This document shows, one piece after another, positions 24,840-43,043 of a stretch of 64,000 bases of DNA. How positions within the stretch are numbered: position 1 is the first letter of the stretch; every line of letters begins with the position of its first letter. The notes beneath the pieces are model-generated. The model worked only from the letters and a program-made list of their open reading frames with translations. It was not told the origin of the DNA and did no database searches. The stretch is from Climacium dendroides (Eukaryota; Streptophyta; Bryopsida; Hypnales; Climaciaceae). The DNA lies in contig OX467092.1 of NCBI GenBank assembly GCA_950106755.1, forward strand, positions 27,046,582 through 27,110,581. Direction: 5' to 3'. Position numbers and translations under genes: made by a program.

Positions 24840-27280
24840 AACACTCTGTTGCGCTCCATTTCCACTCTCAACATGTCCTGGGCTTATTTATGCCGTCATT
24901 GAACGGCCACTCTTGTCCGACTGACCCTCATGGTTGGCTTGTTGTGCAGGATCTTGGGTGCACTATTCACATTTGCGGAGCCGACCTCCTCCCGAAGCAA
25001 CCCACACAACGAATGAGCAAGTCGATGTGGAGGTTCGGATGCCACTACAAGCGGTTCAGACCGCCCGCTCTAAACCGGGGATGACATCCTCGACTCGTTT
25101 GCGGAGGTCAAGATGGAAAGTTGCGCGGAGCTTCCGCCTTGGATAGAGAATGTAGTTGAGCTATAAAAATGTAGATGAATATTGGAATCTAGAATCATTT
25201 TCATTTGATCATTCTTCTTTGCAATACACTCTAGTGAATCCCCCACATTGAATATAGAAATAAGAATATCCACGTTGTTATGAATAGTTTGGCTTTCCCA
25301 TCGCTGCATAGCATAGCACTCTTTCCCAAAGCATAGTGTCATTGGTATCATTGTAGCAAATCGGCCCCCTCTCAAATTGCATCGTCGGGGCTCTTGCAAA
25401 TAACAAGAAGCATCTACGGATCACCATTAATTTCTCCAATGCCAACAGGCATCTATTGTCAATCATGTCGTTGCGAGATCCATGCAGGGCACTATGAGAA
25501 CCTTGGACGCACGCTCGTCAATTGCGGTGCCGACCAATTCTGACATTGTTTGTGTGCCGGATGGATCATTGTTAAATTTGTGGCTTGTGTGGTGAAGAAG
25601 CGGAAACAGTGCCAGGCCATCCACATTCCTATCGGGAATATTCATAGGGGTAGTTAGCTTTACCTTTCAAGATTCCGTGATTGCGTATAACTGCAAGCCC
25701 TCTACATATGGATGGGTGCCGCATTGACAGAGTGGGTGTAGTGTTGACGGAGCTCGTTTGTACACAATGAGCAAGTGTTGAGATAGAATGATCCTCCTAC
25801 CAATACCGACAATAGTACATCATGTCCAATCAAGCTGACGGGCGCAAAGGGATGTGGCATAGAAAATGGATCACGGTCGCTCCCGTTGTCACATCTTGAA
25901 TAATATACGGTTCAGGCGTACCCTTGACTACCCTCCGTCATGCAAAGGAGCTCCGTCAACTCTGCATCCACTCTATCAATGCGGCACCCATCCGTATCTA
26001 GAGGGCCCGTAGTCATGCGCGCCCACGAAATCTTGAAAGATAAAGCTAACTTCTCCTATGAATATTCCTGATAGGAATGTGGCAGGCCTGCCACTGTTCC
26101 GACTTCTTCACCACACAAGCCACAAATTTAACAATGGTCCATTGGGCACAAAGACAACGCCAACATTGGTTTGCGTTGCTGTTGACTAGCATTTGATCGT
26201 GGACTTCACAGTGCCCTGTAGAGTCTTCTCAACAACATGCTTGGCAAATAGATACTTGCTGGTGTTGATCAAGCGGAAGACTCCCCACACGTGCGAGGAT
26301 ACGGTCGATTCAAGAGGCGCGGTCGAAAAAATGCGGAGTGCAAATTTGTCGACCCTACTGGTTAGCATATGGCAAGCTACTAGGCATTGGAAAGCTATGG
26401 ATCATAGTGCAAGCGTTGGCCAAATAAGGTAGGGATGGTCAAACCTCCTTTTCAGGAGGACACCTCTCCTTCCTCATCCCTCTCTTCCTTCCTTTCTGGG
26501 AAAGAAAGTTGGTGCACCATGTGTTTTGAGGGGAAGCTAGGAATGATGTAAACAATGGTGGATCCCTCCGAGAAATCCATGTTCAAATTGAATAAAGTAT
26601 TTGTTCTTCAAACCAAAATCGTGTTTTTGTATTCATGCACGCACGTTGATTTTAATGAACTTTTTTCTTCCCTGCTGTTTTATTCATCGTTTGTTTGTTC
26701 CCACAATGCACCCCCACGACTGACTCAATTGTTCGAGTATTGAATAAAACATATCACGTTATTAAGTGCATATCATGTCAAGATTGCCTTGGTTGGAGTG
26801 GTATTCAATGAAATTGAAACAAAAAGATTAGGCAAGTTGTAGGGGATCCTTCCGTTGGGGAAATTGTGATAGGCAAGTGACCGCGTAGATGCTAGTTTCT
26901 ATGTGAAGGAAGTAGCAAGCTGGCAATCAAATTCTATGGTCTATTGCAATCTTTTTGAAAATCTAATTCTTCCAAGGACTTTGCTCCCATGTACATTTGT
27001 CTACGCAAACTTCTTAGTGGCGATGGAGGAAATTGTAGCAAGTTCCATGAACGATGCTGTCCACTAAGGTAGGTGGCTGGAATTCCAACCCTCTTCTTCA
27101 GACCGTCCCCTAGCTAGCTTTAAAATGGACCTTAAGAGGTTGGTAAATAGGTAATCAATGTTCCTTTGATGATGAAAAAGAGGTTTATCATTTATCAATT
27201 ATTTGTTCATACTTTGATAGGGGACACAATTAGAGCCAATGTGGGTCCATTTCTGAAAACATGTGTGTGCATTCCAAAAA
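24840..27280. other. Internal DNA of the outer element, no gene recognised
   Basis: GC content is higher than in the spacers and short frames exist on both strands (for example around 24950-25080 on +, 25070-25645 on -), but none shows a known domain. Long diverged inverted arms occupy 25505-26205. The stretch may be remnants of cargo or accessory genes. Confidence 0.5.
25505..26205. repeat. Large imperfect inverted repeat, ~250-bp arms
   Basis: The arm at 25505-25760 and the arm at 25950-26205 align as reverse complements at roughly 75-80 percent by eye. Landmarks are TTAAATTTGTGGCTTGTGTGG with its inverse, the GGAATATTCAT/ATGAATATTCC block, and GTTGACGGAGCTC with GAGCTCCGTCAAC. The spacer is about 190 bp. 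The transcript would form a long hairpin. Confidence 0.7.
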
Positions 27281-27284
27281 AAAA

Positions 27285-27492
27285 TGCACTCAAACTTTGA
27301 ATGTTAATATCTTTTAATCCATGTGGTCAAACTTCATGAAATTTTTACCACATGATCTCATATAAGTAAAGTACACGATCCTATGGTTAGATTTTCTTTA
27401 AACTATTTTTTTTGTTGCCTTGGATGAATTGAGCAAAAATGGCAGTTTTGAGTGATTTTTGACCAGAAATAGGCCTTGGCACTTTAGGAGTT
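27285..27492. repeat. ~200-bp dispersed repeat; contains the hAT target site
   Basis: It aligns by eye with 57360-57575 and more weakly with 55675-55920. All share the order: AATRYTWATATCTTKCAATCC-like start, a TGGTC..A..TTCATGAAATTTT.ACCAC middle, a GGCAGTTTTGAGTG block and a CTTTAGG end. The last 8 bases (27485-27492, TAGGAGTT) are the left target-site duplication of the hAT element. Confidence 0.65.
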
Positions 27493-27603
27493 CAGGGTTG
27501 TCCCCGTCACGTCGTGTCCGTCCGTCAGGATCCATCCCCGGCGTCCGTCAGGATGAAATCCAAATGACAACCGGCGATAGAGGATGATTCAGACTACAGA
27601 AAT

Positions 27604-28080
27604 GGACGGACGAGCTTCGTCGACGGGCGCTCTGGACGGCTGCGATGGACGGTCGGATGAACGGTCGATGTGGACGGTTGGGCTGGACGGTCCGGCTGGA
27701 TGGCCGAGATGGACTGTCGACCTGGATGGTCGATCTGGACCGTCGATCTAGACGGTCTGGCTGGACAGTCGATTTAGACGGCCGAGATGGACGGTCGATC
27801 TGGACCGTCGATCTAGACGGTCTGGCTGGACGGTTGATCTGGACGGCCGAGATGGACGGTCGATCTGGACCGTCGATTTGGATGGTCTGGATGGATGGTC
27901 GATGTGGACGGTCCGGTTGGACGGTCGATCTGGACCATCGATCTAGACGGTCTGGCTGGACGGTCGATCTGGACAGTTGAGATGGACGGTCAATCTGGAT
28001 GGTCGAGATGGACGGTTTGGCTGGACGGTTTGGCTGGACGGTCGAGATGGACGGTCGGGCTGGACGATCGGGATGGACAG
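27604..28080. repeat. GACGGTCGAT minisatellite in the hAT left end
   Basis: Around twenty loosely tandem units of about 18-24 bp are built from GGACGGTCGATCTGGAC and variants (CGAGATGGACGG, TCTGGCTGGACGG). One frame stays open through it (repeating DGRSIWTVDLDG-like peptide), but this is a product of the repeat, not evidence of a gene. The position inside the left TIR fits a subterminal transposase-binding array. Confidence 0.85.
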
Positions 28081-28099
28081 GCTTTGAATTTGTTGCACT

Positions 28100-29600
28100 T
28101 AACCCCTAAACATCTGGACTCTTCTCCCAAAATGACAATTTGGAAAATACCATTATAAAGTATGATTTAGAAGAATATTTTGGAATTGGTATACAAACAG
28201 AAGTTGTAGATTTTGAGTTGTAGATTCCATCCGTAAGGTTAGATCCACCAATGCTATCACCAATCTTTTTCTATAAATTTTGAAAGGAAAAATTCAAAAT
28301 TCCTTCAAAATTCAATTACAAGCAAAATATTATCATTCCTTGATTGAAATTTGTTGGAATGGACTTAAAATGAGGTTGCGTTGACATGGTGATTTTTTGA
28401 AATTTTTATACTCTTTACATCTATGACCTCATTTTTGCAAATCCAATTTTGAACTAGGGTCAATGCAAGTTGACCACTTGACACACTTCCACATTTGTAA
28501 TTTTAGAAAAATGTGTATTCTAAGAACAACAAATTTAACCATTAGATAAGACATGAACTAGTCAACTAGATAAAGTATCACCAAAAATTAGGATGACTTT
28601 GATCCAAGCAAAAACCAAACTGAAATAGGAAGTTGAATTTGTTCATCGTCCAAAAAATGGTTAACCCCTACATGCCCAAGGCACCCAAATTTGGTGTTGT
28701 TCAAACTTTGAAGTTAAAAAGTTGTTCTTGAATTCTAGTTATAGCATCAATAGTCTGTTCTTAAAAATATGTGATAGTGATTTTTCTATTCTAAACTTTG
28801 TGCAAGGGTACCTATTGCAATCTTGACTTGTAGTATTGAGAGGTCTTGGAAATGTGCCTCAAAAACATTGGATCTTGGAGGAAAAATCACATTCAAAATT
28901 CATTTAAAATTAAAGAAAATATAGTATAGATTTTTAAAAGCCATAAATTAATTGGGGTTATACATATTAGGTCCTTTAACCTCATATTTGTTTGGTCACC
29001 AACTTTTTAAATTGGACTTGTGAAAAGAGGATTGTAAGACTTCACATCATTTTTTTAGTTTTAACACCCTCTTGGGCAAACATTATAATCTTTTACTCCA
29101 TAAGTGATATTGTTTAGGATTCCTTTTCTATAAGGTTTCTAACATGCCTAGTTCGAATTTATACAATTACAATTTTTTGAAAATTGATACACCAAATGAA
29201 AATGTTGACATGTTGTTCAATTTAGAGCAAATTCTACAAAGCTCAAAGCAAACCTTGGGCATCTAGGATGCTAAGGATAAGGGATTAGAGTTCGTTATTG
29301 AATTTCTAATTATAGAAGTTGCTAAATTGATTTTACATTGTTTGGCAAGAAATTAAAAAAAAATAATCCGTGAGGGTTCTACCATCTAAGTATATAAGAT
29401 TCTTCTACACTAATAGGAAAACGGCCAATGGATTAACCCAAAAGACAAAGGCAAAGCAACAATACACGAGGTGAAAAGAAAATGATAAATGTACAATGTT
29501 TTATAAATGCATCAAAACATGGTACATTGGTTTAGGCTTTACATTGTTCTACTTTGTACAACTTTAGAAATTTAATTCTATGCATCTATCTATTTGTACA
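28100..29600. other. AT-rich spacer inside the hAT element
   Basis: No gene was recognised. 28700-29265 is the inverted relative of the repeat at 8950-9512. The 3' flank of the RING gene lies at the right edge. Confidence 0.55.
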
Positions 29601-29619
29601 CAGCGTCATCCAAAACTAT

Positions 29620-31992
29620 CTATTCTACTTCTTCAATTACAATGCCTCGTGCTATGCTGCTTCTCAAAAATCTTTGCAACTCTTGTCTTAATTGCAAAGT
29701 CGTCAAAAGCTGATGTGCGTCACAATCGTATTTGTTGTGTAAATGGGAGAAAATGGCACTCACAAGTGCAGGCTCATGGAAGGTATTGTCTTCAATGTAG
29801 TTCATTTCTTCCTCAAAACTCAATTCACCTTTGAATCCGACAGGCATGCCTTGAGAGTTAAACATTATGCCTTGTGGATGTGGTGCACGCACAAAAATGG
29901 AGAGGTCCGGGTCCCAATGTCCACCAGCAATTTGACCAAAATATAATCGCCGCCCTGGATCACCATCTCCAATTACCCTCTTAATCACCTCTGTCACCGC
30001 GTCATCATTCTCCCAGTGTATCTCCGCGACCGTTCTTGCCGGGAGGTGTCGATTGTCGTGGCCCCACTTCCAAAGCCAAGTCATGTCCATCCCCCAATGC
30101 ACTCTATTCGCAGGTCCCGGTAAATTTTCTTCATTGTGCTCGTAATGTTCAGGCATGTGGGCTTGGAGGCCAAACATTTTGTACAGCCTCGGATGAAATG
30201 GAACCTTGCATTGTGCACATCTTTTTTGGGTGACCATGTATGGAATGAGGCACATGGGGTGGTATAAATGGCCACATGTACCAAGATGCCATCCACCCTC
30301 GGGGCCAAATGGTTCTTGGCACATAATACATGTGGTGCCGTCTTGTACAAAATCGGGAACCAAAGGCCACAGTAGTGGCCTAATCCCATCGCGGTTCGCT
30401 GGCTCGTATCAATAGCACTCCGTGTCGTATTGGAATTCCAAGTCTGGAGAACTATTCCAATCGATGCTTGCATTCTCGAGCTTCACTAGCAAATCATCAG
30501 TGAACATTTCTTCCACTCGAGGCCACAAGGTCAAGCCAAAATAACGTTCGCCGCCATCATTGAACTCCGCAGCCACTCTCTTCACTTCACGCTGCATCTG
30601 CTCAACCTCGCTTAGTGCTAAGCTGCATGTCAACTTCATGTTGCACATTTGAAGCAGCATGCGTTCCTTCTGCGGGTTTTGGACCAACCGCATATTTTGA
30701 GCACTTAATGCGGTCATGGTCTGCTCCAAGCCAGCTTGAGCTGTAGTAAGCACCACCACATCTGCCTCGGCTTTGTTAGCGCGAAGTTTCAAAGCCCGCA
30801 TAGCGTTTGTCAATTCTTCAACGTGGACTTTAGTACTTCCAACCTCTGCTTCAGCTCGCTCCGCACATGCACGCATAATATCCAACGTGGCACCTCCAAC
30901 ACTTGGAAACAAGGACCGTGACCGCACCCTAAACTCATTTGCATTGCTGGGGCTTGGTTTGTCTTCGTCTGCACCGTATGTAGCACGTTTGACCACTACA
31001 TCAAGTGGTGGAATTTCGTCCGTACTCAACCGCCTTTCACGTGCTATGAGGTCGGCCTCGCGTGCGATGAGTCTTGCATTCTCATCCATAAGGGCCTTCA
31101 CCCTAGCCCTTTGCCCTTCTAACTCTGCAGCATGTTGTCGTAATGCGGCTTCCTTTTCTGCTTGCAGCGTTTGGACTAATTGTCGCAAGCGAAGTACTTC
31201 ATCATCTTCGCCTTCCACTCCACCAATCGCATCTTCATTGGATAGGTCTTCTTCGGTGCCCATGCCACCCTCTACCTCCATCACCTCCATCCCGGGTTGC
31301 TCCACTTGCTCTTCCGGGTTTTCTTGCACATTGGGTACATTGTCCAATGGCACGGCAGGGTTTGGTGGAATGCTGCGAGGTCTATTTGGTGATTGACCAT
31401 GACGCATCTTGCCGAGGAAGGTTCTCCAATCCACATCTTTCTCAAGAAAAACTTCCGCATATGCCATTTGGCACAACGAAAGGGTCCCATCTCTTCTGGA
31501 TCTCAAACCCCAAATCGCCAATGCCACTTCAATCAATCTCTTCTTGAAGTGCGGATGTCGGCACTGGTCGAAATTTACAACCCCGCATTTCACATTTACC
31601 TCGTACTGGTCAGGTGCCCAATGGCGATTGATGTGGGCCCAATTTACGAACTTCCGACACGTCACTCTTGTCCACGGTGAATCTTCATTCATCCACCCCT
31701 CGTTTGCCATAATCTCCGAGGCATTGAGTGTGCCCCAATCCAAGGTTGCCCTGTTCCCCCTCTTCTTTTTACTTGGGGGCTCACATCCATGTCCTGAACC
31801 TCGTGCTGCATCCTCTCCGTCCATTCTGGATACCTGTCCCAAATTCCCTGTACCTGTAGTCTGTTTGCGGATATACTGACAATTTGCTTTGCTTTCTGTT
31901 GCGTGAAGGCAACTGAAAAGTGACAAAACAAATGCCAAATGTATAACACTTCCTCTCGAATTACAATGCAAAGCTTTCTCAAGCCAGGACAA
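29620..31992 (-). pseudogene. Coiled-coil / RING-H2 finger protein (hAT cargo), one in-frame stop
   Basis: Reading from the minus strand, the first ATG is 31992; a second ATG at 31824 starts MDGEDAARG close before a basic PPSKKKRG, a possible nuclear signal. Then come a conserved-looking Trp/Cys-rich block (WTRVTCRKFVNWAHINRHW), an acidic linker and a long coiled coil (about 31200-30540; repeated E/Q/L heptads). After YDTECY an in-frame TGA (30409-30411) is followed without frame change by a RING-H2 finger: CIMC, 14 residues, CGHLYHPMC, then CAQC. The frame ends at 29620. CGA to TGA would explain the stop. RING-H2 proteins usually act as E3 ubiquitin ligases; that role is inferred. Read through, the protein would be about 790 residues. 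Truncated at TGA it would be a coiled-coil protein without RING. Confidence 0.75.
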
Positions 31993-32019
31993 AGCAACTC
32001 AAAAGAGGAAGCGATTTCA

Positions 32020-32340
32020 AATGAGCCAACAAAACATACTTATACCTCCGAATTACCGACCCAATTACGCCCGGTGATTAGTACATAATCATGACGTCCA
32101 GCTCAAATCTAGACCGTCTAGGGACGTGGGACAGCCTTGGAATGGACGGTCAATCCGTCCACGAAGGTTCGGGACAAGTTTGGAAAGCCGTCCAGAGGTT
32201 CGGGTAAGGTTTGGAAAGCCGTCCGAAGGCTCGAGGCGCCGAAAAGAGGATTGGAAAATCATTATTGCGTCGTCCGCGAGTTCCCTCGACGGCTTGTCCG
32301 TCGATCTGGACGGCTTGCCCGTCCCCTCGATGGCTTGCCC
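32020..32340 (-). promoter_or_regulatory. Candidate promoter of the RING gene with GACGG repeats
   Basis: On the minus strand a TATAAGTA sequence (about 32036-32043) lies some 45 bp before the first ATG of the RING gene. Upstream of it, 32113-32340 holds many CCGTC/GACGG motifs (for example GACGGTCAATCCGTCC) and the 12-mer GTCGATCTGGAC shared with the hAT left end and the kinase-gene flank. The function is inferred from placement. Confidence 0.5.
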
Positions 32341-32424
32341 TTTATGGGTTCATGATTGAAATTTTCTATTGCTACGACTAAATGATGTGAAAAATTCATT
32401 CAATTGAAGCAATTTTGGATCTAA

Positions 32425-32554
32425 TGATGAGTGTGTAGCATAGCAAGCGCCAACTACTATCATCATCATACTACTAAAATCATAATGGCCTCTGGGATAT
32501 TACAAATGCTATCATTAATACTAGGGGCTTGTGCTTGCTATGCTACGCATTCAT
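32425..32554. repeat. Small MITE with GTAGCATAGCAAGC ends
   Basis: The left arm GTGTAGCATAGCAAGCGCC and right arm GCTTGCTATGCTACGCATTC are inverted complements, giving an element of about 130 bp. A third copy of the left arm, with the following ACTACTAAAATCA, recurs at 33151-33200. Confidence 0.65.
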
Positions 32555-33260
32555 TGTACCACATATTGATGAAATTTTGATATATTTGAATACAATGTAT
32601 GATAACGATTTCAATAAGTCTTTAAAATAATAATTTCCAATATATTGTAAAATTACTTCTAATCATGCATATATAAATATCATTGCTTCTCTTGGCTTTA
32701 CACTTCTTTGCACTTCTATGATTTTGTGTTTTTGTAAGCCTTGAACTTTTATGATTTTAAAATTCTATTGCTACTTCCAAATGATTTGAGAAATTTATTC
32801 AATTGAAGCGATTTTGGATTTCACAACAATTAAATTGTTCACGAAGTTTTGAAATTTACAAGTTCTTCTTTTCAATTCACCCAGTTTGGGGGGTGCCATT
32901 GTTTGTAACAACAAAGTCAATCTTGGAATGCATTATAATACATGTAGATCTTTTACATATTGCCCATTGCATATATTTTATTCATCATTCAATAAATTTC
33001 TATTGTACATTTCAATATATGCTTATTTATAAACAAAATTATATAAAGATTTTAGTAGTAAATGGAAGGTTTATTGAAACTTTTATTTGAAGGTTTATTG
33101 AAATTTGTGTTCTTTATTTTATCTAATACATAAAAATTCAATAAAATTCAAATGATGAATGTGTAGCATAGCAAGCGCCAACCACTACCATACTACTAAA
33201 ATCACAAGGTCCTTTGTAATACCATAATTTTACAGAGTGTGATATTACAAAGGCCCAATA

Positions 33261-33362
33261 CCTTTATAATATCACATTTTAACACCGTATTATAATACAA
33301 AATTGCAACAACCACTCCACTTCTGTAACATCACAGAGTGTTAAAATGTGATATTATAAAGG
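33261..33362. repeat. Perfect ~25-bp inverted repeat hairpin
   Basis: ACCTTTATAATATCACATTT at 33261 pairs with its exact complement ending at 33362. The spacer is about 52 bp. It is probably part of the MITE cluster starting with the arm at 33151. Confidence 0.7.
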
Positions 33363-33517
33363 TACAGGGAATATTATAGATGTTAAGGTATTCTTGGCTT
33401 CACACTTCATTCAACTTGCATGATTCTATGATTTTGAGAATTAACTAGCGGTTATATGAGGATGTCAATATTTCCATTTAAAGATTATATATTCTTTAAT
33501 TATCTACATTCTATTCT

Positions 33518-33683
33518 GTGAACCACCATATTGGTTCACTTTTAATGTAATAGGAAATAAGTAAAATATAGATATGAGTTTTAGATTCAAAAGTGTTAGT
33601 ATCCTAAATTAAACTAAAACCATTAGTTAGAAGACTTTTAGTATATAGGACAAGAAACTAGATCAAAATTTCAATCCAAAGGA
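33518..33683. repeat. ~165-bp dispersed repeat (partner at 58216-58379)
   Basis: It begins GTGAACCACCATA and ends at CAAAATTTCAA. Its partner in the right-hand spacer is in the same orientation with few differences. Non-coding. Confidence 0.8.
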
Positions 33684-33865
33684 CAAATGTAATATATTAC
33701 GATTTTAGGCGAAACATTTGTTAGAAAACTATATGAAATATTGGAATCCATTCATCTATTTTTGGATTTGGTCTTACTTCAATTTGAAATTATTTGCTAA
33801 AATCACATAAACTTGAGCAACATCAAATAGTCTTAAAAGGAAAATAAGAAAGAGCATTTAAGGTA

Positions 33866-34052
33866 TAGGTTTAGGATATAGGGTGTAGGGTTTAGGGTAT
33901 ATGGTACAAAGTATAGCGTATAGGGTTTAGGATATAGGGTATAGGGTATAGAATATAGGGTTTAGGGTTTAGGGTTTAGAGTATAGGGTTTAGGGTATAG
34001 GGTATAGGGTATAGATTATTAGAGTTTAGGGTTTAGGGTTTACTTAGAAACA
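33866..34052. repeat. Degenerate interstitial telomere-like array
   Basis: About 25 units of TTTAGGG and variants (TATAGGG, TTTAGGA) are mixed over 187 bp inside the hAT element. Arabidopsis-type telomere repeats support a plant-lineage origin. Their place inside a transposon suggests capture or local amplification rather than a chromosome fusion. Confidence 0.75.
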
Positions 34053-35115
34053 TAAGTCATAGTTGAAATTACCATATAGATGATCTTGGTTTTTTTAATT
34101 GGGATTATATGTTCAAAGCTCATTTGAATTGTAGAGTTTGAATTGAAGCAAAAATGGATTGTTGAATTAAATTCATATTCTCATAATGCATATTGAAGAC
34201 CAAAAATCAGAGTATAAGTTTATCTTTGAGCATAGATAGGGGAAGTCCCCTTTTTTTGGTGTATTGGATCAAATGCAAGAAGTAAGAATGTTTGTAATGA
34301 ATCAATGATTCTATATTATACATTTTTTTTTTGGAGTTTTTTAGATATCTTTTTTAATGAACGATTTTAAAATTAAGTTTACAATATTAGAGTTTAGCTT
34401 TTAGAGGGCCATTTTGTCTTTGATTCTGTATATTTGATATGGATTTAGTAAATTAGTGAATGTTTGTATGTTTGAATTGAGTACATGTAGGTTGAATATT
34501 CAAGAAATACTAAATAATTGTTAAATTGTTAGGTGCACTTACATGTAGGGAAGCTTGGAATCAAAATACAATAATCCCAAAGGTGAAATTACTCTATATG
34601 GAATTCTAAAATTCATTGCATTTAAATTTGATCCGTATAAATTATTTAAGTTGCGAGGGGATGCCTTGATGGCTTGATTGTTGTAATACAAACATTGGCC
34701 ACGACTTTCTTATTATGGGTGCAAATGAAATGATGCAATTTTTTATGTGAACATCAAAAATATTCTAGGACTTAAATTAAGATGTTTTGAATATGCCCTT
34801 TTGTAATTTTTGGGGTTGTTTTTTCCTTTATTTATGTGCAACTAAATAAAATTCCATTCTATTCGAGCCTAAACCCTAAATCCTTCATCTGCATTTGAAT
34901 GTCATTATTGGTATTTATTTCTACATCCATAGGAACAAACGTGAACATTTAATTGGCACTCCAAAACTTCCCGCCACCATAGACAATGTAGTATTTTAAA
35001 CATGGACACCTGTCCTGACAAGTCCCAGGGTGGAAAACAAGATAATTGAAAAATTCCCCGAACAAGGATTCGCAATTAATTCCATGCTTCCAGCACTTTG
35101 GGCGACAACTTGTTT

Positions 35116-35353
35116 CGACGGTCTTTTCGTCCCCTGGACGCCCGTGGATGGGGGACGGAGTCCGTCCTCTTGATGGCATGACCGTCGATCTGGACGACGC
35201 GACCGTCCACTCAACGGCATGTCCGTCCTGTCGATGGCCTGACCGTCGATGTGGACGGCATGACCGTCCTCTCGACGGCATGCCCATCGATGTGGACGGC
35301 ATGACCGTCCATCTCGACGGTCATGCCGTCGAGAGGAAATGGGTATATAAAAG
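35116..35353 (+). promoter_or_regulatory. Candidate promoter of the kinase-like gene with GACGG repeats
   Basis: A clear TATA box (TATATAAAAG, 35344-35353) lies about 185 bp before the ATG at 35538. Directly upstream, 35116-35335 is packed with CCGTC and GACGG motifs, including CCGTCGATCTGGACG and repeated GGCATGACCGTC units. The arrangement mirrors the other hAT genes. Confidence 0.65.
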
Positions 35354-35537
35354 GGGTTTGGATTCATTTCTGCCACAGTCTCTCTTGCTCTGACGGTGCT
35401 CGCTTGTCTTGGATTGGTTGCAGTCCTTGCTTGGGAGCGCGGGTGCTTGTGAGAGGCTGGTTTGAGGAATAAAGGGGCGGTTTTTCACTTTGTGGAACCC
35501 GAATTCCTAATTCCTCTGGATTATCACTACTATCGCA

Positions 35538-37199
35538 ATGGCTGGTCGCGATTTCTCGAAGAGGAAGGTTGATGCGTGGTTTTCAGGAGTTGGAGATGGA
35601 ACGAGTTTGGACCCGCTTGCAAAATCAGAAAGCCAGATTTCAGAGGCTGTAGCTGCAGAAGGAGCCATAGCAATTGTGGGTGCGGGAGAGTCTTCGAAGT
35701 CGAAGAAAAAACAACGGAAAAGGCACAAGGCCACAAATCCAGAGAAGTGGCCAAGCAAGGTTGCAACTCACAAATTGCATGAAGTGGCGTTGGGTTTTTT
35801 TGAGCAGTATTCGATTCCGCAGTTGAACACAACATATGTGTCGCGCGGATTACAAGGGGTGGATGCCATCAAACAAAAGTTCCACTACATGTTTTGGACA
35901 ACAATGAGCGAGGATGAGTGGTTGGAAGACCGCACAAAGGAATCCTTTAATCATTGGCTGGAGTCACAAGTGCAAACGTGCATCTTCAACCTTGCCCAAG
36001 TTGCGGAAAAAATCAAAGGCTTTCAAAAGAGTGTAGTTCCCAAACAACAAGCATTGAATTTGTTGCACAAGAAGGTGTATTGGTGGCATGAAGCAATGCG
36101 GGGACTATCTTCAAACAACATTCGTTCTGCTTCGTGGTTTCAACGAAGTCAAAACTTGGCCTTTGGTCAACAAGCTGCGGGTGGAGTAGTTTTTCTTGAG
36201 AGAGGAGTTGTGGTGGTTCCGTTGTCTGACCATAACAAACAAGGGGGGCACGGGAGGGTGCGCAAGGTTTGTCTTCAGAATTCGAACCATATTCCCAAGA
36301 ATATGGAATTAGCTGGGAAATCGGCCGTGCGCGTTGATGACTTGAAGAAGTCAAGGGAGAAGTTGTCCATTGAGGCATTGGTTTGTCCATGCGATCATCT
36401 AGGGGTCATCAAATTCTTTGCCATAAATGACATGACCATGGAGTGTTATTCTCAATGGTGGAATGGAGGTACTCTGGGCGCCATGTTTACCCTTGATGAG
36501 AAGACTCGAGATCCAGACGAAATTGGGGAGGTGGCTTACCATGCAACTCCACAAATAATGCAAGCCATGAAACGACTTATGGCATACAAACGCAAGCGCA
36601 CCGAACTTGCGTGGGCGTTGCTCTGCATTGTGGATGCAGTGCAACAATGTTCAGTACTGTACAACGACATCACACCGGAGAACATCATGCTTCACTTTCC
36701 GAATGACGATGGAAGAACCGTGTGGATTGGTCTATGTGATTGGGGAATGGGTAGCCGCATCTATGAAGAAATCCCTTCTCTTTACCAATTCAGTTGTGCA
36801 AATAAGTTGCAGGCAACTCGCAAGCAATGTTGGTAGGTGGCTCCGGAGTTGATGTACATGGTTGGAGAGACAGGAACTTCAACATCTCCTAGTCACATGG
36901 GTAAGCCACCATCTGTTAGTATACACACGGATGGATACTCCATAGGGAGATTGGCTATGAAGGTATGGAAAAAGGATCGCGAAAATACAAAGATGATTTC
37001 TGACCATACGGCATTTGGTACATTTCAAGTGACACTGGGTGAATTGTGCAAGGTAGAGCCACTACAACAACGCTCAGTGACATTTGCCGTGCAACGTCTA
37101 AGTGGTGCTCCAACGTTTTGGACACCACCCGTGGATTGCTACCGCGAGGCTCGGAAAGAACAAGACCTTCAAGATGAACAAGCGTGCAATGAGGATTAG
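35538..37199 (+). pseudogene. Divergent protein-kinase-like protein (hAT cargo), one in-frame stop
   Basis: The frame opens at ATG 35538 and runs to TAG at 36834-36836, then continues in the same frame to 37199, 553 codons in all. After an N-terminal region with no recognised domain comes a kinase-like fold: a glycine-rich stretch (GGHGRVRKV, about residue 235), a catalytic-loop equivalent LYNDITPENIML (Asp near residue 377, in place of HRDxxxxN), CDWG (Asp near 401, in place of DFG), VAPEL right after the stop (APE motif) and TDGYSIGRLAMKVW (subdomain IX). Metal-binding Asp and Asn seem present, but the HRD Arg is missing, so activity is uncertain. TGG or CAG to TAG would explain the stop. 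It could be a host kinase captured by the transposon. The role in transposition or host control is unknown. Confidence 0.72.
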
Positions 37200-37761
37200 A
37201 TGATAGTGTATTACCATATAGTTGCAAAATTAATGTTTTCTTATCAAATGTGGTTATTATAGTATCGGCTTGAGGACATCCATAGCAATGTAGCACACTT
37301 TGTGCCGTCAATCCATTTTGTACTCGTTTTTTTATATATATAAATGTATTTTATCTAAACATTGAGTGTATCTTTTTTTTATCACACCTCAAACACGTAA
37401 ACAACTACAACAAACACCTTGAAGTCAAATTTGACTATCAACCCAAATTTATCTTTTTATTCAAAATCAATAGAATATTTTAATATTTTTGGCTAGTATA
37501 AGAATCCATTTTCTAGTTATGCCTTTTTTAATTTAATGAAAAAATCTATTTATTTTGATTTTAGAAAAGTTAAACATGGAAATCAAATCATATTAGTTAC
37601 AATATGTATCAAAATAAATTGAAACCCTTACCATAAATGAAGGATAGAATGAAAGGAACAAAAGTACTTCATATTAATGCCGATTTCAATATGTAAGGTA
37701 TTGAGCCTCAAAATCCATTGCATTTGAAAACATGAATATCCTATTGTCTTTTGAAAAACAT
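37200..37761. other. AT-rich spacer between convergent kinase-like and transposase genes
   Basis: The 3' flanks of the two genes meet here. No further coding or repeat structure was recognised. Confidence 0.5.
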
Positions 37762-40700
37762 TCAACGTCTTCCATGTCTAAGAACGCGCCTAGAAGTATT
37801 GGCTGTTGCTTCTGCTACAATTGGTTCATTACCACCACTTTCTACTCGTGGACCTTGTCGAGGCACTGTCCCTAGATAATCACTATCTCCTGGAACCTCA
37901 CCATCTTCGCCTATACTAGCACCGATGGACTCGCCATCATCACTGGATGTTGCACTACCACTTTCGCTAAAGGCATTCGAATTTCGATTTCGTTGTGGTC
38001 GAATTATAGAAGACAATGTTCGAAGAAGCCGTTGGCCCGTTGCGTCCATAATGCCATCTATACTAGGCCCTCCTATGTGAACTTCTCTTGAAAATGGTTG
38101 GGATGCCGCTTCTTCTCTCGTTAGTCTTCTACGTGTTCTAGGACTCACACGTTGACTAGTAGTACCTTCATGTCGTGGATGCTTCCCTCGATTATTGGCG
38201 CGTGTAGGTGGGTGCAATGAAGTCGGGTTTGTAGTCGTACGCTGGGACACCATACTAGCTAATCGTGTACCTATCGTTGAAGTGGGTCCATGTAGGCGAA
38301 CTCCGGAATTAGATGGCCTGGCTGAATTTTGGATTTGTAGATTCTCTAGTATTGGTGTTTGACGTTGTAGTGCAACATCCCCTTGACTTGGAGGGGGCAT
38401 ATCTAATTCTCCACCATGAGGGGGCCCTTCTCCGTGGGTGGTCCTCGTAGGCAATGATTGTGGTACTACTACGTCTTGTTCACGTCCTCTTTCCATGTCA
38501 ACACTATCTCTTTCCATTGAGGCATCAACTTGTACATCGATAGGATCTGGATTTAGTGGTCTCGGTGCCACAATGTCTTCATTCGTATTTCCCCCGCTTG
38601 GCCCAACATTCCACCCTTGTGGCATTTGTGGTGGACTTCCATCATATCCCTCGTGGTCATTGTCGTTATTATCCCCCTCTTCAAAGTCAAATACAGATGC
38701 ATCAATTAGAGGACGCACTCCTCTCGCCCCCTGAAATCCATGGAATGGTGGGTCATCGCCATCATTGGAACTATCATCTGAATCGTCATCATTGGGGTTA
38801 GAGCGAACCGAACCACGGTCTAGACCATCCGATTCATCAGTCATGGAATCTTCTGACATCATGTTCTCGGTGTACCACCTTGTCGGATTTGCTGCAGCCC
38901 TTTCTCTAAGAGTTTTGGAATTGGTGTAAATGTAAACCAATTCCTGAGCACGCTCTGATGTCAGTCTATTGCGTGATTTGTTGTGGACAAACGAATACAT
39001 GCTCCAATTGCGTTCACACGACGATGCAGAGCACACTTGGGCGAGGATCTTTTTTGCAATTGGTGCAAGTGTATGAGCACCGGCTCCGAGAAGGTTCCAC
39101 CATTCGTGAGGCTGCAAATTTAAAGTGTTTACATCGGGAAGTCCACCAAAAATGCCCCGACGATCTCGAAATGCTTGGTACTCAGACAAAGTTGAAGCAA
39201 ATGCTTAATCTGGAACAGCCAATTTGCGCAATACTCTCAATATGCCTTCTCTTGCCTCGTCATCATCCATTAGCAAAACTTCGTCAAGTAAAAAAGGATT
39301 CAATAGAGCCCCAGCATAATGCAAATCTGTCCTTAGCATGCCCCAATGCTTGTAGAAATCATCGATGGCAGGAATTGCATACCGTGGTTCCAAAGAAAAT
39401 GGTGGATCCCGTAGAGATAAAACATGCTTTTCCACCTTTTTCATCACAAGCCATGCCTTGTCTAAGCATGGGTGCTTGCCATCAAACTCTCTAAGAGCAA
39501 CCAATACGGGCTCCACTATGTGCACAAAGTTTAAACATCTCCTCCAAAATTCATCCGTTCGTACATACCGTCGCACATCGTTGGCTTTTCTTTTCTTTTC
39601 TTCTGATGTCAATCTCTCTGTGTACTCATTCCATTGCGGATCGTGGACTGTTGATTCTATCGCTACCCTCACATGTACCAAACGCTCAATCATAAGGAAC
39701 ATGGTTGCAAAGCGTGTTTCAACGGGATTCTTCAAAATGAGATTAGGAGAATGTCGTCGAAAAATTACAAGTGTCATGTGATGTGTGCGAATGTATTTCA
39801 CAATTGACTTGGCTTTCTTGACCATACTTTTTATCCAATCTTGTTTGCCCCAATCTTCAAGTAGAAGGTCAAGTGCATGTGCTGAACACCCTTGAAAATA
39901 TAAGTGTGGAAATCGACGAAGTAACAAAGCACTAGCAGCCAACATGTTCCCTTCATTGTCTGTACAAACTTGTACCACATTTTGCGCCCCTACCCTGTCA
40001 ATATAATCACCCATGCAATTAGCCACATAAGTAACATCTTTGCGTTCGCTTGTTGTGTCTATGGATCCAAGAAACACCTCTCCACTTGTACATGCCAACA
40101 TGACATTCATCAATGGTCGATGGTTGACATTGTCCCATCCATCAGAGCATATTGTAACGCCGTACTTGTGGATTGGTGCCTTTGTCTTCTCCGCTACCAT
40201 TGCCGCCACTTCGTCTTTTGTAGATTTTATGAGGTTTGTACGAAGTGCATGGTACGCTGGAGGTTTGTAGCCAACTCTCGATTCTGATGTTGATTTCACG
40301 GCATCCAAAAAAACTGGATGCCTCGCTACATTGAAAGGTATATTGGCTTCATAGAAGAACTTAGCCCACTTTTTGTCTAGTACTTGCTTGTTTGATGTAT
40401 TCATTCCTTCTTGCACAGACAATTGCCTCATTGATCGACTGTGGGCCAAACTCGGGTTGGGTGTGTCTGATGATCGTACTTGAGAGTTTTGTCCCCTAGT
40501 GTTTTCTCCTCCATCGTTTCCTGAGATTGAGGCATCAGGTTCTTGTTCACCACGTACAACACTCGGAAGTACCATTGATGGAGATGTCACTTCCACATCC
40601 TATCCACTCCTGTCCAAAGTGCTTGCAGGTATATCCCCTCCGTAATTAAAAAACATTAGCTTCACGGCTGCACTAACTTTAGTGCAGGCTCTCACTCCAG

Positions 40701-40845
40701 GGAGCTTGTCCATTCGTCGGTACCCCAAATGGAAAAGCAACCGATCTTTTCGATAGCTTAGCAAAGCTTCGCAAAACTTACAAGCAACTTTTCCATCCAC
40801 TCGTAGTGTGTACCAAGGTTCCCAATGTGATCTTCCTCCACCCAT
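37762..40845 (-). pseudogene. hAT transposase (BED finger, DUF659, hATC), two in-frame stops
   Basis: From ATG 40845 the N-terminus has a BED-like finger (ACKFC then LLFHLGY). An in-frame TAG at 40600-40602 follows; the tandem second copy of this region has CAG (Gln) there, so the stop is secondary. The DUF659/RNase-H-like core is next: GVTICSDGWDNVNHRPLMNV (first Asp), VVQVCTDNEGNM (second Asp) and GCSAHALDLLLED. A TAA at 39205-39207 breaks the frame, but the same frame continues with the hATC dimerisation domain (PHEWWNLLGAG, SSCERNWSMYSFVHNKSRNRL). A long disordered acidic Ser/Asn-rich tail of about 350 residues ends at 37762, unusual for hAT. With both stops read through it has about 1027 codons. 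Both stops fit CAG/CAA to TAG/TAA changes. Confidence 0.85.
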
Positions 40846-42365
40846 TGCTCTTATCTATTCTTTCCTACTTGTCCCTACACAAGAAAGAAGATTAGTATTC
40901 TGTATGAAATGCGATGTAGAAGCAATACTTGTTGCTCTCACAACAAGTGCCACCACAACACATTCTTCTTGAATTTTGCTTTACCGCAATGGTTGTACTC
41001 CAACCAAGTTATGAAAGCCAAAATCAGTAAGGAAAAGTAATCTTGAATAGGCGTAAGTCCTTAATATACACCTTTCAGGGCGATCTTAAAACCCTAAAAC
41101 CCAGCTAGACGGACTGACGCAGGCGGCTGATGTGTCGACGGGTGGACCCTAAGCCCAACGGAAACGGCCTCCCGTCTTGGGGACGGCTTCTCGTCCTGGG
41201 GACGGCTTCTCGTCCTAGACAGCTTCCCGTCCTGGGGACGGCTTCCCGTCCTGGGGACAGCCTCCCGTCCTGGGGACGGCTTACTGTCCGGGAGGCCGTC
41301 CAGGAGGCCGTCCACAGCACGACAGACTTCATCTATGCTGAAACGGTCACGTCAGTATTGGTGACGGATCCTGACGACGTCACGACACGTCAGGACGGAC
41401 GCGTCATGACATCCGGACGTGAAAAGCCCACGTCACGTCCGGATAGACAACCCTGCCTGAGATTGAGGCATCAGGTTCTTGCTCACCACGTACAACACTC
41501 GGAAGTACCATTGATGGAGATGTCACTTCCACATCCTGTCTACTCTTGTCTGAAGTGCTTGCAGGTATATCCCTTCCGCAATTAAAAAACATTAGCTTCA
41601 CGGCTGCACTAACTTTAGTACAGGCTCTCACTCTAGGGAGCTTGTCCATTCGTCGGTACCCCAAATGGAAAAGCAACCGATCTTTTCGATAGCTTAGCAA
41701 AGCTTCGCAAAACTTACAAGCAACTTTTCCATCCACTCGTAGTGTGTACCAAGGTTCCCAATGTGATCTTCCTCCACCCATTGCTCTTATCTATTCTTTC
41801 CTACTTGCCCCTACACAAGAAAGAAGATTAGTATTCTGTATGAAATGCGATGTAGAAGCAATACTTGTTGCTCTCACAACAAGTGCCACCACAACACATT
41901 CTTCTTGAATTTTGCTTTACCGCAATGGTTGTACTCCAACCAAGTTATGAAAGCCAAAATCAGTAAGGAAAAGTAATCTTGAATAGGCGTAAGTCCTTAA
42001 TATACACCTTCAGGGCGTTCCTAAAACCCTAAAACCCAGCTAGACGGATTGACGGCTGATGTGTCGACGGGTGGACCCTAAGCCCAACGGAAACGGCCTG
42101 CCGTCCGGGGGACGGCCTCACATTCTGGGGACAGCTTACTGTCCGGGAGGCCGTCCAGGAGGCCGTGTACAACTGGACAGACTTCATCCATGCTGAAACG
42201 GTCACGTCAATATTGGTGACGGTACAGCTGGACAGACTTCATCCATGCTGAAACGGTCACGTCAGTATTGGTGATGGATCCTAACGACGTCACAACACGT
42301 CAGGACGGACGCGTCATGACATCCGGACATGAAAAGCCCACGTCACGTCCGAATAGACAACCCTG
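40520..42365. repeat. Tandem duplication of the hAT right end
   Basis: 40520-41455 and 41456-42365 are two copies of the same segment, each holding the transposase N-terminus, its upstream flank, GACGG repeats and a complete GACAACCCTG terminus. Copy 2 begins directly after the first terminus. They differ by point changes and by losses within the GACGG repeats. Copy 2 keeps an intact codon where copy 1 has TAG. Confidence 0.85.
41094..41430. promoter_or_regulatory. GACGG repeat cluster upstream of the transposase
   Basis: Regular GACGGCTTCCCGTCCTGGG units (41155-41320) and TGACG/CGTCA motifs (41345-41430) lie between the transposase start and the TIR. A TATA-like GTGTATATTAAG on the minus strand (about 41059-41070) sits between the repeats and the ATG. 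The same arrangement, shortened, is at 42040-42350 in the duplicated end. Confidence 0.55.
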
Positions 42366-42373
42366 TAGGAGTT

Positions 42374-42990
42374 TGGTTTAGTACACATCACATTTAGGAA
42401 CCTTGTCTACTATATTTTTGCATGCTATAGTACTTGTTTTCAGACCGCATGTGTGTGGGTTTTGCAAGGCCTAGGGATCATAAATAGGTACCTACGGCAA
42501 AATTCTTTGAAAATTCATAAGTAATTCATAAATGCTCTAACAAATATGAAACCACTTGGGTTAAATTCCAAATCAAATTTTCTTCAAGTGAAAAATAAAG
42601 TAAACTAATTTCATGCATCTAAAGACCATCAAAAAGGCCGACCATCCCGTAAAGGGTTGCTTCATGAGTCCACTACCTTAAACCGACCCTCAATGCCATC
42701 TTCCTCTGAGACCGTGGAGTGACTGGAGTCTAGTCCAAGACTCTAAGACCTATAGACTAATGAATAGCCTAAAAAGAATCCCGCATTACACTGTCTCTCT
42801 GCCTTTCCTATTTTCCAATAGGCGAAAATGCTTGAGTCTTCTATTGTATGATCCTCCATCATGACCTCAATCTGAGCTTCCGAGTCATGGAGGGGCCCAT
42901 TCCATCCCATGAGCGCTAAAAAACCAGTAGAGTATGCACTTTAGGAACCCTACAAGCCGCCTCTCAACAAGTTTCCGGTCTTCTTGGCTA
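42374..42990. other. Right-end DNA of the outer element
   Basis: This is what remains of the outer element to the right of the hAT insertion. No gene was recognised. The final ~50 bp belongs to the TIR region. Confidence 0.5.
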
Positions 42991-43043
42991 CCGGAAACCG
43001 CCATTTCAATGGAATTTCGCCATTTTAACGAAATTGCCCATAG

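Follow-up and report, generated by a model that had tools for sequence, protein, structure and literature searches.

In a 64,000-nucleotide stretch of the Climacium dendroides genome (contig OX467092.1, positions 27,046,582 to 27,110,581; hereafter the window), we found that positions 27493-42365 form a single hAT element carrying a RING/coiled-coil gene, a kinase gene and a DUF659-hATC transposase gene between its ends, the kinase gene on the plus strand and the other two on the minus strand (Table 1). A sequence-only reading of this DNA had proposed CAGGGTTGTC ends, a perfect 8-bp duplication TAGGAGTT, a DUF659/hATC transposase and two further genes, and all of these are present exactly as claimed, the duplication being exact on both flanks. 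Taken alone, the 10-bp end motif is weak, with 5 sites at ≤1 mismatch in the window against 3.5 expected; we accept the boundaries because of the exact 8-bp duplication together with the family data given below.

The same reading had called the three genes almost intact. Their frames are indeed continuous, except for four premature in-frame stops (two in the transposase gene and one each in the RING and kinase genes), and the window copy is thus dead. In addition, the right end contains a tandem duplication: a segment of about 0.9 kb (c. 40520-41455) recurs as 41456-42365, with pieces 88-97% alike. This accounts for a third terminus at 41446-41455 and leaves the window copy with a second right terminus and a second transposase 5' end. 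Between the RING and kinase genes, at 33860-34050, lies an array of GGTTTAG/GGTATAG heptamers that resembles degenerate plant telomere repeats (TTTAGGG). Rfam gave no match at the gathering threshold within 27000-43000.

Table 1. Features of the hAT element in the window, in window coordinates.
Feature	Position	Strand	Details
Left target-site duplication TAGGAGTT	27485-27492		8 bp, identical to the right copy
Left terminus CAGGGTTGTC	27493-27502	+	10-bp end motif
Left subterminal repeats, GACGG/CCGTC-rich	27503-28080		Repeat family, 13-bp register
RING-H2/coiled-coil gene	29620-31824	-	734 codons; premature in-frame stop at codon 472
RING-gene promoter region	32040-32340	-	TATA-like box ~220 nt before ATG, then GACGG cluster
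Kinase-gene promoter region	35110-35400	+	GACGG cluster, then TATA box 194 nt before ATG
Divergent protein kinase gene	35538-37199	+	553 codons; premature in-frame stop at codon 433
hAT transposase gene, DUF659 + hATC	37762-40845	-	1027 codons; premature in-frame stops at codons 82 and 547
Transposase promoter region and inner right-end copy	41050-41455	-	TATA-like box 223 nt before ATG (40845); 14 GACGG; terminus 41446-41455
Right-end tandem duplicate	41456-42365	-	Second transposase 5' part: ATG 41781, TATA-like box at -223, 8 GACGG
Outer right terminus, CAGGGTTGTC on the minus strand	42356-42365	-	
Right target-site duplication TAGGAGTT	42366-42373		

By searching the genome (412.6 Mb) with the proteins of the element, we found the trio, with the RING gene upstream, the transposase gene downstream and all on the expected strands, at 71 of 75 kinase places, window included. 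For this count, the search reached 45 kb upstream for the RING gene and 30 kb downstream for the transposase gene. It used 75 of 98 kinase rows (leaving aside 12 second pieces and 11 rows at ≤37% identity), 77 of 92 transposase rows (15 at 44-47% were dropped) and 76 of 150 RING rows. Tighter limits change little: the RING gene lies within 9.4 kb in 67 of the 71 places and the transposase gene within 5.2 kb in 67 of them, each counted alone, while in 50 of 71 the RING gene stands 5.1-6.2 kb upstream and the transposase gene 4.4-5.2 kb downstream. A few places are far wider, as nested insertions would give. In the kinase search (97 of 669 candidates scored), 87 rows reach at least 61% identity and correspond to the 75 places, some of them represented by a second piece; 11 further rows lie at 29-37%, and nine of these are kinases of another family described below (family 3). 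The N-terminal part of the RING protein has 84 matching rows in the genome, and the 76 bases of the left end have at least 41, window included, two of which are pieces of one place (40 of 97 candidates scored).

Ten additional elements were fetched from the 75 places, picked mainly for full-length kinase matches. Both ends could be located in nine of them (in L011 only with ≤3 mismatches allowed), while in L019 the right end alone was found. The flanking 8 bp are identical in six elements and differ by one mismatch in two; they do not match in L027, and the left end was not found in L019. The eight delimited elements are 13.8-15.3 kb long. Some copies keep unbroken frames, namely for a transposase of 1027 amino acids (aa) in L025 and L027, for a kinase of 547 aa in L011, L013, L019 and L023, and for a RING protein of 734 and 737 aa in L027 and L021, where the RING and coiled-coil parts thus belong to one gene. 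Each gene is a single open frame in these copies. Hence the full-length relatives that the sequence-only reading had expected do exist for all three genes, and its proposal of a defined family is borne out by the trio count and by the element's own 8-bp duplication, with at most one mismatch, in eight of the ten fetched elements. Together, these data establish the focal family as a defined family of giant (about 14-15 kb) three-gene hAT elements.

We also found evidence of insertion as one unit. An empty site, which the earlier reading had suggested looking for, was found for the L025 element: L031 has the host repeat (a family 3 element) without the focal element, and L025 has the focal element inside that repeat. 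When the left and right flanks of L025 are joined through a single CTTCCATG, 78 of 80 bases agree with L031. Since the empty site holds a single target copy, the ends and the RING, kinase and transposase genes (~14 kb) were inserted together. Short elements of 691, 669 and 638 bp with the same ends occur in L005, L006 and L008, flanked by the exact 8-bp duplications CATTGCAC, AACGTTCT and CCTTAAAT, and look like non-autonomous derivatives. The earlier reading had held that RING and kinase genes found only in this copy would speak for chance insertions; these genes recur across the family, and end-only short elements are what is expected of non-autonomous derivatives.

The transposase frame of the window matches DUF659 (E=7.2e-40) and Dimer_Tnp_hAT (E=2.1e-9), both over the Pfam cut-off, and its unbroken relative in L026 (1725-4808) matches PF05699 (E=3.4e-8, 33.6 bits against a cut-off of 21.4) and DUF659 (9.1e-39). 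Candidate D-D-E residues (SDGWD, CTDN, CERNWS) were picked by eye in the translations. In the RING protein, the RING-H2 (C3H2C3) ligands C-x2-C-x14-C-x-H-x2-H-x2-C-x10-C-x2-C are kept in 11 of 11 focal copies, and the same pattern is found in four relatives from other data sets (P0011-P0014) and in the L029 and L030 copies of a second family (family 2, see below); moreover, a profile of the RING alignment matches the sequence of the RNF24 structure (E=2.2e-5). Pkinase scores 19.9 bits on the window kinase (E=5.4e-4) and 23.2 bits on the family 3 kinase, both under the cut-off of 31.7, and 33.2 bits, over it, on the relative P0001. HN[DN]..N and CDWG are retained in 31 of 34 kinase relatives of at least 440 aa, and among 11 focal kinases LAGKSA is present in 11, HNDITP in 10 (all except the window copy), CDWG in 10 (all except L013) and VAPEL in nine. 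The kinase profile retrieves 63 proteins, one of which is named Ceratodon purpureus, a moss, by its source. For P0001, NCBIfam yielded only weak kinase-like matches, and viral contigs gave zero matches to six patterns built from P0001. From these conserved motifs, we predict as a hypothesis that the RING protein would act as a ubiquitin ligase and the kinase as a phosphotransferase; the suggestion of the sequence-only reading that the element thereby modifies proteins of the host or its own transposase is likewise kept as a hypothesis.

Related trios, between ends like those of the focal element, are present in two further families of the same genome. In family 2 (L029, L030, L036-L040), the kinase and RING genes stand head to head and the transposase gene follows the RING gene on the same strand. 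Counting part of the matching rows for this family and for a family 4, we found a divergent kinase within 15 kb at 43 of 50 family 2 RING places and both RING and kinase at 12 of 15 transposase places, while family 4, whose kinases are about half identical to those of family 2, has a nearby kinase at 7 of 17 RING places. One family 2 element (C38) runs from CATGGTTGTC to GACAACCCTG over about 13.4 kb with the duplication AGTTTTGC, and another copy (C37) has a target duplication that matches at 7 of 8 positions. The flank of the latter (L039) suggests an insertion in a phosphatase-like frame of another repeat (DLNGILC motif, seen by eye). Family 3 encodes a transposase, a RING protein, a short protein with the N-terminal domain of the RING protein only, and a kinase, the RING gene and the short protein being known from one copy. 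With 86 of 87 kinase rows and 65 of 65 transposase rows used, a kinase lies within 20 kb of the family 3 transposase at 36 of 65 places. A 17.5-kb span of this family (C41) runs from CAGGGTTGTC to GTAAGCCTG, with the exact duplication CCAAAAAT on both sides. Between the three families, transposases are 35-43% identical; for RING proteins, kinases and N-terminal domains the matches are at 23-35%. The RING and kinase genes are head to head in the read copies of all three, and the transposase gene is found beside the kinase gene in the focal family and beside the RING gene in families 2 and 3. These sequence comparisons indicate that the trio predates the focal family, with related trios in three families of one genome.

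A phosphatase (NIF/FCP1-like, L034 4465-5199, E=3.7e-15) and other genes were considered as parts of family 3 and rejected as belonging to another repeat, because the phosphatase lies within 10 kb of a family 3 transposase in only 2 of the first 41 of 150 rows and the C41 copy ends earlier. L034 1-6746 and L035 would make up this separate repeat, which holds the phosphatase gene and several unknown open reading frames and may be another large mobile element; its phosphatase frames fall mostly into two size classes, 266-268 and 276 codons (150 rows scored of 1227 candidates). Two places suggest large tandem arrays: five equal-score kinase matches spaced ~44.6 kb at C39:4403943-4583066, and four phosphatase matches, one per 29.0 kb, at C3:15067612-15155427.

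The focal element is strongly enriched in GACGG/CCGTC, with 79 occurrences in the window copy against 14.4 expected (standard deviation 3.9, maximum 27 in 200 first-order Markov simulations) and a local density of up to 15 in 250 bp against 5 in the simulations. Across nine elements, the repeats cluster at four places: at each of the two ends and ahead of the RING and kinase genes. The cluster of the right end at the same time occupies the region preceding the transposase gene. We then compared gene starts in 11 elements. A TATA-like box stands at -194 of the kinase gene (11/11), at -219 to -222 of the RING gene (10/11) and at -223 of the transposase gene (11/11), and a GACGG cluster, mostly upstream of the TATA box, precedes the same genes in 11, 10 and 11 elements, respectively. 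The exception is L021, which has a different RING upstream region with neither box nor cluster. Both transposase starts of the window (40845 and the duplicated 41781) show this layout. In family 3, clusters are found near gene starts and at the right end. Judged from this layout, the focal family has a plan for a shared regulon; family 3 looks alike in this respect, and family 2 lacks the plan. Since Ac and Hermes transposases bind subterminal repeats, it is reasonable to suppose that the focal transposase binds the GACGG repeats.

The window holds a dead copy of a giant three-gene hAT element, which belongs to one of at least three related families in this genome. With modest confidence, we favour the view that its genes would form a self-regulated regulon, with the kinase and the RING protein as accessory factors that act by post-translational modification. 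In this model, an N-terminal zinc-finger-like region of the transposase would bind GACGG-type repeats. Binding at the ends would pair the termini for cut-and-paste transposition, and binding at the promoters would make the three genes one self-regulated regulon, while the kinase and the RING protein would set transposition through post-translational modification. As a first choice, the RING protein, dimerised by its coiled coil, may ubiquitinate a target that the kinase would have phosphorylated, either a host silencing or repair factor or the transposase itself. In this working model, which we rate as the most likely one, repeat binding is suggested by the anatomy of the element and the role as accessory regulators of host or transposase by conservation. 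Because the trio occurs in three families and the focal genes share a promoter plan, the kinase and RING genes look like standing parts of a hAT lineage.

Several observations weigh against this model. At the protein level, Pfam gives no BED zinc finger for the transposase of the window or of the unbroken L026 copy, although a CxxC..H stretch is visible by eye, and zf-RING_2 stays just under its cut-off of 27.3 on the window protein (E=9.3e-6, 26.3 bits) and likewise on the relative P0011 (25.9 bits). AlphaFold models of the RING protein and the kinase are poor, with confidence scores (pLDDT) of 44.7 and 42.2. The median pairwise ratios of nonsynonymous to synonymous substitutions (dN/dS) among 11 copies (55 pairs each) are 0.51 for the kinase (0.29-0.85), 0.62 for the RING gene (0.37-0.92) and 0.76 for the transposase (0.43-1.65). 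The medians speak for the model, but no test against 1 was made, the ranges overlap and the values mix time under selection with decay after insertion. Between families, the match of the focal and family 2 kinases spans only 85 aa (E=5.6e-7), and family 2 carries a GACGG cluster at its right end only. For family 3, a single copy (C1; L033) provides both the RING gene, in three broken pieces, and the short protein, and the C41 span was read at its ends, its kinase and transposase being known from genome searches.

Other explanations were weighed against the same data. The main target of the accessory proteins might be the host, whose silencing or defence they would block; in effect, not in sequence, such a module would resemble VANC of Arabidopsis Hiun. 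This we regard as unlikely, yet it is the strongest competitor. Giant multi-copy mobile elements must evade silencing, for which an E3 ligase with a kinase would be a plausible tool, and VANC provides a precedent (available text of PMC6446971); however, the sequence names no host target, and the promoter repeats point equally to self-regulation. It is less probable still that the kinase and RING genes are passengers, that is host genes captured long ago that have no role in transposition. That plant DNA transposons capture genes is well established, according to the available text of the same source (PMC6446971), but decay or loss would then be expected, yet related trios are found in three families whose transposases are 35-43% identical (the family 3 RING gene coming from one copy). 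Moreover, the median dN/dS of both genes is under that of the transposase, with overlapping ranges, and in the focal family both bear the same promoter repeats as the element ends. Host-gene capture, which the sequence-only reading had entertained, finds no support either as a recent event, given that no closer kinase outside these families was found among the 97 candidates scored of 669, that the genes are single open frames and that they have homologues in two other hAT families. We consider it very improbable that the kinase and the RING protein form an addiction or drive pair, harmful to cells from which the element is lost: the head-to-head arrangement in the focal family, at 43 of 50 family 2 RING places and in the one family 3 copy read would fit, but a toxin-like signature was not seen and many copies with stops in either gene coexist. 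Finally, although nesting does occur (the focal L025 copy lies inside a family 3 element), a chance nest of two unrelated genes inserted separately into a hAT element is rejected for the focal family, as practically inconceivable, by the constant gene order and orientation at 71 of 75 places and by the site found empty of the complete element.

The usual picture of a hAT element is that of a transposon with one gene. As described in the available text of PMC3260210, Ac/Ds elements have an 8-bp target duplication, 11-bp ends starting with C/TAGGG, subterminal AAACGG hexamers bound by the transposase and short non-autonomous derivatives. The focal family shares the 8-bp duplication, short ends, subterminal repeats and non-autonomous derivatives. 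In contrast, Ac is 4.6 kb long with a transposase gene alone, whereas focal elements measure ~14-15 kb, carry a kinase and a RING gene and have repeats before each gene as well. The marks of the Ac/Ds group, a TAGGGATGAAA-type end and AAACGG as the main repeat, are also missing, as the focal end is CAGGGTTGTC and the element has AAACGG 6 times against 47 for GGACGG. In Hermes, a hAT element of the house fly, BED domains bind the subterminal repeats (available text of PMC10368747). A likeness to Hermes lies in the hATC dimerisation region, and the transposase of family 2 (used as query in place of the focal one) matches it weakly (E=0.0086). Hermes is a single-gene element and is not known to encode a kinase or RING protein. 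TnpA of the CACTA element En/Spm controls its own promoter besides binding to subterminal repeats, but the transposase is another one and the duplication measures 3 bp. MuDR and VANDAL/Hiun are DNA transposons that also carry accessory genes, as a second or third gene (mudrB, vanB, vanC), whose functions are described as unknown, DNA-binding or anti-silencing (available text of PMC6446971); they differ by a Mutator superfamily transposase and by accessory proteins not described there as kinases or RING proteins. The available part of a 2018 survey of plant hAT elements reports none in Physcomitrella (PMC6027215). Among titles and abstract openings in partial literature listings, with subscription journals and preprints mostly outside, we found no hAT element with a kinase or RING gene.

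The result is larger than first noted and concerns a whole lineage of giant three-gene hAT elements. In three diverged families, the transposase is accompanied by a kinase and a predicted RING-type ligase, and relatives of both proteins occur in other data sets. For annotation this is a warning, as more than 200 kinase-like places from the three families (75, 65 and 86) could pass for host genes. The trio families also make it possible to test directly if a transposon can regulate its host or itself through post-translational modification. More tentatively, these plant elements may form a giant hAT lineage with its own phosphorylation-plus-ubiquitination module, controlled as one regulon together with the transposase through repeats common to ends and promoters, that would dismantle host silencing or set the life-time of the transposase. 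If true, this would be a signalling-type accessory system within a cut-and-paste transposon.

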